The translations under genes were made by a program, and so were the position numbers. The notes below the pieces were generated by a model. The model was not told the DNA's origin and made no database searches. It was given only the letters and a program-made list of their open reading frames with translations. From Acidobacteriota bacterium (lineage in GTDB: Bacteria > Acidobacteriota > Vicinamibacteria > Marinacidobacterales > SMYC01), in contig SMYC01000097.1 of the NCBI GenBank assembly GCA_004356105.1, forward strand, positions 1 to 64,000: 64,000 nucleotides of DNA. The letters are read 5' to 3'. Of the stretch, positions 33,957 through 36,267 are shown one piece after another. The first letter of the stretch is position 1, and each line of letters starts with the position of its first letter.

Positions 33957-33978
33957 CGCTGCTGTATAATCGGCGTTG

Positions 33979-34281
33979 ATGGCATGTCCCAATTGGAGTC
34001 GCTCACACGATAGCTCGGAGGATGAGGAATGGTCAGAGCGCGATGCGCCCGATCCGGAGCCCGAGCTCGAGAACGACGATCTCGAAGACGACGATGATGA
34101 TGATGATGATGATGATGAGAGTGACGACGACGAAGAAGATGAGAGCGACGAAGAAGACGAGCAGTTGCGCGAGGACGACAGTGATTGGGACGAGGCCGAC
34201 GCTACCGTCGACGACGAGGACATCGACGAGGATGACGAGGAAGACGAAGACGATTGGGATGACTGCGCAGCTGACTCATAA
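33979..34281 (+). CDS. Extremely acidic low-complexity small protein
   Basis: 100 residues from ATG 33979, well over half Asp or Glu, with an uninterrupted run of ten Asp after NDDLE. The N-terminus (ACPNWSRSHDSSEDEE) is polar; there is no signal peptide or helix. A GAT microsatellite encodes the Asp run, so length may vary. No Shine-Dalgarno is visible; TATAAT at 33965-33970 could place transcription start at the ATG itself (leaderless). Possible roles are cation buffering, RNA/DNA mimicry or binding of basic proteins; all inferred. The reverse frame (poly-Ser) is a shadow. Whether it is translated is uncertain. Confidence 0.5.
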   Translation: MACPNWSRSHDSSEDEEWSERDAPDPEPELENDDLEDDDDDDDDDDESDDDEEDESDEEDEQLREDDSDWDEADATVDDEDIDEDDEEDEDDWDDCAADS

Positions 34282-34319: not shown

Positions 34320-35513
34320 CTATTCCGACTCTCCATGAATCGTCGTGTCGGGCCGATAGTGCTCCCAGGCGAACCACACCGCGAAAGTGGAGATCAAGCT
34401 TTGTAGCTTCTTGCCTTGAAGCGGCCCGGAGAGGGCTTCGCCGCTTATGGGGTTCCACCGAGAGCCTGTCTCCGCGTCTTCGAGTTGTTCATCCTCCGTG
34501 AGGCGGAAGCTCAGAGCGCGGCCATCGATTTGGCGATCGTAGACCCGTGCCGTCGAGAAGTCTTTGCTCAAATAGACCGCAATAGGAGCCCCTTCGAACC
34601 GTTCTTCGACGAAGCGTTCATCGGCCAGCCGCCGGAGGAGATAGGCGCGCGCCTCGACATGGCCTTCGAGCCCAACGATGAGGTCGTTGCCGCGAACGGG
34701 ACCCGGGGCCATCTTCGCGGCCTTCTCGAAAGTCTCTTTCGTGAAACGTGAGCTGTAGGGAACGGAGCGCTTCACGTACACGGTCGTCTCGGGGTGTAGC
34801 GCTTTCCACTGAGCCCAGGTCGTCATCGTGGAAGGAAGCTTCTCGAGCGCTGCGCCTTTCATCTTCCCGCTCACGGCTTTGCCGAAGAGCTGGCTCCACC
34901 GCGACTGCGTCTCCTCGTCATACATGATGAGCGTTCCTTCATCGACGCCGACGACGCCAAAGTTGTGCTTCTTGCCATCGAACTCGCGGGCGTACACGAC
35001 GCCGCTATGGTCGATGGGTCACCAGGAGGGGGCGATAGCCTCACCTCCGAGCTCGTCGTTCACAATCTCGTTGTAAGGCCCGTTCATATAGTTCACCGGG
35101 TAGGCGCGTGGCTCGCCGTTGATGACGACGCCCATGACCATGTCTTCGTCTCCTATCTCGACGTTGTCGGCGGAAACGATCTCGGGATTGACGTTCAAAG
35201 GGAAGCCGCCTTTTCGTAGATACGTAAAGTCCGAGCGGTCCCTCGGCTCGGTGGGGCCACTCGCGATCTCGGGATTGAGCTGCATCTTCGTGTACTCGTC
35301 GAAGGTGATGTAGCCGTCGCCATTGGCGTCGATGCGCGCCACGGCCCTCTCCGGAAGGCTCAAATCGCCTACGGGAACCTTGGCGTCGAGGTCTTTGTCG
35401 AAGACGCCGTTGAGATGGAATCTCGCTTCCATCATCCTCTGCATCATCTCCGGATTGGGCCTTTGCGCGGCGAAAAGCAGCGTGGGAAGCAGCACCAAGA
35501 AAAGTGTTTTCAT
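34320..35513 (-). CDS. DUF3179 secreted protein with an in-frame UGA (candidate selenocysteine)
   Basis: One continuous frame from ATG 35513 to a stop at 34320, interrupted only by TGA at 35019-35021: 397 codons including the UGA. Signal peptide MKTLFLVLLPTLLFAA, EF-hand-like DANGDGYITFDEY (about 62-74), then DUF3179 with GEPRAYPVNYMNGP, NDELGGEAIAPSW-(UGA)-PIDHSGVVYAREFDG, and SQLFGKAVSG. In family members I remember, the residue after AxxW/Y at this point is Cys (W/Y-C-x-x-C); here UGA occupies it and the second Cys is Asp. Bases after UGA fold into a hairpin like a bacterial SECIS: lower stem ATCGA/TCGAT and upper stem GGCGT/ACGCC with loop CGTGT. The protein on both sides is well preserved. 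A plain nonsense mutation is the alternative. Confidence 0.65.
34979..35021 (-). promoter_or_regulatory. SECIS-like hairpin following the in-frame UGA
   Basis: Counting the U of UGA as 1 on the minus strand: lower stem positions 7-11 with 41-45 (five pairs), internal loop, then 17-23 with 29-36 (seven pairs around one bulged C), apical loop CGTGT at 24-28. The distance and the GU in the loop fit bacterial SECIS rules, in which SelB reads the element directly after the UGA. No sel genes are in the window. Confidence 0.45.
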
Positions 35514-35535: not shown

Positions 35536-36267
35536 TCACTTTAGCGTTGACGGGTTTCCCTGGTCAAACGAGGCAGCTTGGTAAACGATACGGCCGCCAA
35601 ATACGGTCATCTCGACCTTGCACTCCGCAATTCGCTCGGGCGGAATTTTCAAGATGTTCTCGGACAAGATCGCGAGATCGGCGAGCTCGCCTCGTTCGAG
35701 CGGAGCGGCGGCGTAGCGAGGAACGGCGTCCTCGACTTTCATTTTTTCCCTCGAAACGCGCCGACCATCGAGATCGAGGCCGGTCACAGCTCGGTGGATC
35801 CTGACTAGAGGGTCGATCGTGGTTGCCGGCCAGCCGCTGGCGAAGCGTACACCGCTCCGGGAATCACCCCTCGAATCGTTAGTCCGGAGAGGGAGCGCTT
35901 CCGGGAGGGTGCCGTCGAGCGCGCGCACGCTCGTGATGCCGAAGCGGTGGAGATAGGTTGGGGCGTCCGCGGGCGTGATGCCTTTCTCCTCGAGCCAAGC
36001 GGTGCCGGCCGCGAGATCCACACGGTCGTCGTGGAAGCCGGGAAGAAGCAGCCGTCCATCGAGGTCGACGACTCGTGTGTCTTCACCGATAAAGGCCTCG
36101 ATGTTACCGATCGCGAGGATGCGTCCATCCGCTATCGCGAGCCCGTCCGCCCAAGGTGCCTCGGCGTTGAGCGTATAGATGGCGCCGCCCCGAAAGACGA
36201 GCTCGGCAGGGGATGACGGCGGGGAAGAGCACCCGGTCAGAACTGCGAGTGCTACGAATCGAATCAA
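35536..36267 (-). pseudogene. Shortened YtcJ-type amidohydrolase lipoprotein
   Basis: 243 codons against about 550 in the amidohydrolase-3 (YtcJ) family. It keeps the lipobox signal (VLTGC), the N-terminal beta domain (GGAIYTLNAEAPWADGLAI, DGRLLLPGFHD) and the C-terminal beta domain (GELADLAILSENILKIPPER, MTVFGGRIVYQ). The first metal motif HxH is gone (HDDRVD), and most of the TIM barrel with the remaining metal ligands is missing, although the frame stays open. This looks like serial in-frame deletion. It cannot be a working hydrolase. Overlap with neighbours is absent; it follows the DUF3179 gene's upstream end by 22 bases. Confidence 0.7.

Follow-up and report, generated by a model that had tools for sequence, protein, structure and literature searches.

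A predicted selenoprotein of the DUF3179 family that lacks cysteine and has a UxxD motif in an Acidobacteriota genome

The window, that is, the whole stretch of DNA that was analysed, comprises 64,000 nucleotides of contig SMYC01000097.1 from an Acidobacteriota bacterium. On its minus strand, positions 34320-35513 form a single frame of 397 residues with AAAAGAGG 5' of the start ATG, a fair ribosome-binding site as read from the sequence. Upon translation, the frame was found to contain one internal stop, TGA at 35019-35021, which corresponds to residue 165. As stated in a preliminary description of this locus, the TGA is the sole interruption of the DUF3179 frame and there is no frameshift. 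The gene has the following features:

34320-35513, minus strand: predicted selenoprotein gene, a DUF3179 frame with the UGA read as selenocysteine, ending in the stop TAG at 34320-34322
35466-35513, minus strand: probable signal peptide (MKTLFLVLLPTLLFAA), identified by eye
35295-35330, minus strand: EF-hand loop DANGDGYITFDE, residues 62-73, from the Pfam EF-hand match (19.7 bits) and the sequence pattern
34767-35159, minus strand: DUF3179 repeat 1, residues 119-249, holding the predicted Sec165, from hhalign against repeat 2 (E 4e-27)
35019-35021, minus strand: UGA codon for the predicted Sec165, at the family's first motif cysteine (W-U-P-I-D)
34975-35017, minus strand: SECIS hairpin, strongly supported by fold, covariation and a held-out model
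34326-34703, minus strand: DUF3179 repeat 2, residues 271-396, without cysteine or selenocysteine, from hhalign

The Pfam DUF3179 match extends over residues 102-390 and covers the whole profile (positions 2-292) with a score of 194 bits (E 4e-57), the curated cut-off being 27. A search of NCBIfam gave no match for the protein. The N-terminus resembles a signal peptide, and the protein is probably exported. Residues 62-73 form a canonical EF-hand loop, scoring below the Pfam cut-off of 25.4 bits, and an EF-hand is present in no other surveyed selenocysteine form. There is no cysteine anywhere in the protein sequence. In the alignment of the family, A137, U165, D199, W206, G216 and W236 hardly vary.

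For the open reading frame directly upstream of the DUF3179 gene (35536-36267, minus strand), the match to the Amidohydro_3 profile is confined to the final 40 profile positions. By eye this frame has an amidohydrolase-like N-terminus, its catalytic core is seemingly missing, and it is probably a shrunken remnant. On the plus strand, a 101-residue Asp/Glu-rich open reading frame (33976-34281), situated on an imperfect GAY-type repeat tract and without a match in a Pfam search, has its 3' end facing that of the DUF3179 gene. No conserved gene neighbours of DUF3179 were found; the clusters consist of DUF3179 itself and of antisense frames.

The genome is a draft of 6.77 Mb in 335 contigs. A check for selA, selB, selC and selD had been proposed in the preliminary description, and a profile search of the genome found all four components: tRNA-Sec (74 bits), selA (548 bits), selD (285 bits) and selB scored over their cut-offs, showing that the genome can make selenocysteine. 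The selD gene (L025, G000:C18:6344-7255) sits in a 796-residue open frame and may be fused to another domain.

Five DUF3179 genes are present in the genome. Three of these (L001, L002 and L003) share the domain with the window gene and have cysteine, in the motif CPLT or CTLC, in place of selenocysteine; as a group, the cysteine forms lack a SECIS stem in register. The other two, the window gene and L005 (G000:C232:22428-23279), have one TGA each, at the same codon. L005 has a UPLA motif, contains no cysteine and lies about 1.5 kb from a cysteine-type paralogue (C232:19932-20879).

In a survey of the phylum, DUF3179 was found in 91 of the 297 genomes sampled. The survey gave 61 interrupted DUF3179 frames, two of them from this genome, each with one stop; this stop was TGA in all 61 frames and TAA or TAG in none. 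The TGA occupies the codon of the first motif cysteine in 60 of the 61, and the window TGA aligns with the first cysteine of the CxxC or CxxT motif of the relatives. The placement of the UGA in the preliminary description is thus upheld by the comparison of homologues suggested there, in which a cysteine is conserved at the site and relatives carry either cysteine or TGA. For stops arising at random and independently of one another, the probability that 60 would all be TGA at 65% GC is about 5e-25, a value that is only a guide because the relatives are not independent. A Phycisphaeraceae relative from outside the sampled set (L119) also has TGA at this codon. Three sequences (L135, L136 and L137) have Asn or Asp in the Cys/Sec column (NPLC, NPLS and DPLC), which is either real or an alignment slip.

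TGA forms occur in 46 of the 297 sampled genomes, suggesting that selenocysteine-containing DUF3179 is common in the phylum. A strong selA match was found in 43 of the 46, an excess with p 1e-6 relative to the rest of the sample and a weaker one (p 0.03) relative to genomes having only cysteine forms of DUF3179. The three TGA genomes without selA all have tRNA-Sec.

Directly after the UGA, the minus strand folds into a hairpin with a minimum free energy of -19.3 kcal/mol. The lower stem, CCAUCGA/UCGAUGG, has 7 bp (35011-35017 with 34975-34981) and the upper stem, GC-GGCGU/ACGCC-C-GC, has 7 bp and one bulged C (34999-35005 with 34986-34993). The loop CGUGU (34994-34998) lies 21-25 nucleotides after the UGA. 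The SECIS-like hairpin noticed earlier is thereby recovered with the same upper stem and with a lower stem two base pairs longer than had been given; the position of 24-28 reported for its apical loop fits when counted from the U of the UGA. The rules for bacterial SECIS elements specify a loop of 3-9 nucleotides with a G in its first two positions, a stem of 4-16 bp, a spacing of 16-37 nucleotides and an energy of at most -7.5 (PMC13188914). The window hairpin, with its five-nucleotide loop having G second and then U, its stem of 7 bp plus one bulge, its spacing of 20 nucleotides from the UGA and its folding energy, lies within all of these. The z-score of the fold is -2.1, compared with values near 0 for several relatives, so that little can be concluded from folding energy by itself, and the weight is carried by the tests of register and covariation.

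Two SECIS arrangements were found among the selenocysteine forms. In the first, the stem is formed by positions 14-20 and 26-32 after the UGA and the loop is mostly CGUGU; in the second, found in the UTLC/USLC group, the stem is formed by positions 9-15 and 21-27 and the loop is GGUCU. Over the 36 relatives with the first arrangement, 95.6% of the cells are paired and compensatory changes are seen at all seven pairs. None of 500 shuffles scored as high, and sliding the partner strand by 1-3 columns reduced the pairing to 25-45%. Selenocysteine forms have on average 6.4 of the 7 pairs in this register and cysteine forms 4.3 (p 4e-8). Within the loop, G22 is invariant and U23 is conserved in at least 90%. 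A covariance model of the SECIS, built without either TGA gene of this genome, was run on the 6.77-Mb sequence. Its top two sites were those of L005 and the window gene, with 30.6 and 26.2 bits, scores that are partly owed to protein homology; the next site had 17.9 bits. Only these two sites follow a TGA, and the cysteine paralogues of the same genome were not matched. The identification of the hairpin 3' of the UGA as a SECIS is strongly supported by these comparisons.

The selenocysteine forms with a UTLC, USLC or UVLC motif (L070, L072, L074, L076-L082, L084-L090 and L102) have N-terminal hydrophobic segments, together with the differing SECIS register and the GGUCU loop. Three further DUF3179 relatives (L109, L110 and L111, from G234, G218 and G140) are 584-586 residues long and rich in Cys, and have a UENC motif, a shorter SECIS-like hairpin with the loop GGG and a longer C-terminal part.

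The machinery, the position of the codon, the identity of the stop in dozens of relatives and the covariation of the SECIS stem strongly support the proposal, first made in the preliminary description, that selenocysteine is inserted here. We regard it as very probable that the UGA at 35019-35021 is read in this way. Decoding would be performed by the SelA, SelB, SelD and tRNA-Sec of the genome and directed by the hairpin after the UGA. Standard annotation would label the gene as broken or truncated, and the full selenoprotein is very probably made.

The residue three positions after the selenocysteine (+3) is cysteine in 31 of 68 selenocysteine rows and in 50 of 56 cysteine rows. The 37 selenocysteine rows without it have A (18), T (9), V (3), S (2), E (2) or one each of D, I and K, the Asp being that of the window gene. 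The UxxD motif is thus a departure from the listed UxxC/T motif and not from the family, as other selenocysteine forms also vary at +3. The replacement of the second cysteine by Asp had been considered unusual; this holds for the Asp, which is unique to the window gene, and not for the loss of cysteine. No cysteine occurs anywhere in the domain of 28 of 31 selenocysteine forms lacking the +3 cysteine. The association of selenocysteine with loss of the +3 cysteine has p 2e-6 by simple count and is not significant on independent tree pairs (about 1.6 versus 0.3 of 7 pairs). It depends on a small number of independent changes and is not taken here to be established. Two UPSE selenocysteine forms (L106 and L108, from G238 and G152) have a CxxC about 86-90 residues downstream, possibly an alternative resolving pair.

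DUF3179 is a tandem duplication, the profiles of its two halves matching with E 4e-27. The AlphaFold models are of high confidence, with a mean pLDDT of 83.7 for the whole protein and 93.9 for the first domain. Foldseek matched the models best to Rieske ferredoxins and to NirD, a Rieske-like protein that has no cluster; the top probabilities were 0.96-1.00 and the E values only 0.007-0.2. Profile comparison with Rieske proteins of the same genome gave a weak match for repeat 2 (P 2e-4 to 4e-4) and no signal for repeat 1, and the only solved structures matched by sequence were EF-hands, with none matched by the DUF3179 profile. The Rieske cluster ligands CxH and CxxH are absent, the window protein having no cysteine. 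On the strength of these models, we consider it reasonably likely that DUF3179 consists of two tandem Rieske-like beta domains without cluster ligands. The likeness of CPLC and CPLT to the Rieske CPxH motif prompted the idea that the selenocysteine replaces a cluster ligand. This was rejected, as alignments of repeat 1, repeat 2 and Rieske proteins place the selenocysteine in a beta-turn and other ligands are lacking.

The predicted product would be an exported protein. Besides a probable signal peptide and an EF-hand it would have two Rieske-like beta domains in tandem, and Sec165 is situated in a beta-turn of the first beta domain of the model. As the protein has no cysteine, the selenol would need an external reductant if it performs redox chemistry. 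Most likely it would act alone: in a redox reaction outside the cytoplasm it would make the attack, after which another protein or a small molecule would supply the thiol that reduces it again. A redox role of this kind, that of an exported one-selenol enzyme relying on an outside thiol, is to be favoured with some reserve. Less probably, Sec165 of the same selenoprotein would have a structural role or would bind a metal or a metalloid. The missing resolving cysteine and the predicted likeness to a metal-cluster fold would be compatible with this reading, but there is no conserved set of Cys, His or Met partners at the site, and in other proteins selenocysteine almost always serves in redox chemistry (PMC9312934). 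The complete picture of a cysteine-free, EF-hand-containing exported selenoprotein, with a duplicated Rieske-like fold, a lone beta-turn selenol served by an outside thiol and possibly control by calcium, is put forward tentatively. If true, it would place a selenoenzyme on a non-thioredoxin fold, in a large uncharacterised group of the phylum.

On a tree of 119 DUF3179 domains, the Sec/Cys label changes 8 times, at least 7 of these being forced by well-supported branches, showing repeated exchange between the two residues. A long branch leads to the window gene, which falls in a mostly selenocysteine set (39 of 42 rows) of moderate support (83). It has 34-37% identity to its nearest relatives, the nearest in the full-length alignment being the Phycisphaeraceae copy (37%). 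No orthologue was found in its order; the only other TGA form found there groups with L005 and not with the window gene.

A long branch known from a single draft genome might be taken to indicate a pseudogene or a sequencing error, the TGA being a recent nonsense mutation or a miscalled TGC or TGT. This is highly improbable: the remaining frame is intact, with no further stop or frameshift, TGA and never TAA or TAG occurs at the same codon in 59 other frames, and the SECIS stem is kept by compensatory change and was recognised by a model built without the gene. There is very little chance that the UGA is a real stop, giving a 164-residue product with the second half translated separately, for instance from the GTG seven codons after the UGA, or not at all, since truncation would split the first beta domain mid-way, both halves are conserved throughout the family and selection acts on the stem 3' of the UGA. 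A Trp reading of UGA occurs in some bacteria (code 4), but near-cognate read-through as Trp, Cys or another residue is similarly remote here, where other selenocysteine-form DUF3179 frames use TGA as a true terminal stop, a full selenocysteine system and a SECIS are present, and relatives carry Cys rather than Trp.

With selenocysteine as the preferred reading, the survey suggests that selenocysteine forms of DUF3179 often lack any resolving cysteine, and the fold is possibly that of a Rieske-like domain that has been duplicated. The frequency of selenocysteine, the lack of cysteine and the candidate fold together make the biochemistry of DUF3179 directly testable.

Selenocysteine in this family had been thought new in the preliminary description. 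However, DUF3179 (PF11376) with the motif UxxC/T is already a predicted selenoprotein family (Table 1 of PMC9312934, 2022; Table 1 of PMC13188914, 2026). The listed proteins belong to the same Pfam family as the window gene and, like it, were predicted from bacterial sequences and have selenocysteine at the first motif cysteine. The window gene differs from them in its UxxD motif, its lack of cysteine and its EF-hand, and is, as judged from sequence, an added member of the listed family with these peculiarities. The +3 residues of the survey (A, V, S, E, I, K and D) form a wider range than the listed C and T. A beta-sandwich likeness of DUF3179 to Rieske ferredoxins and NirD is predicted, with a weak profile link to repeat 2. 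However, Rieske proteins have the CxH and CxxH ligands, whereas DUF3179 lacks them, has a duplicated domain and would carry its selenocysteine in a beta-turn and not in a ligand position. The GPX-like and OsmC-like selenoproteins (UxxT; PMC9312934) resemble the window gene in having a motif without a resolving cysteine, although their folds differ.
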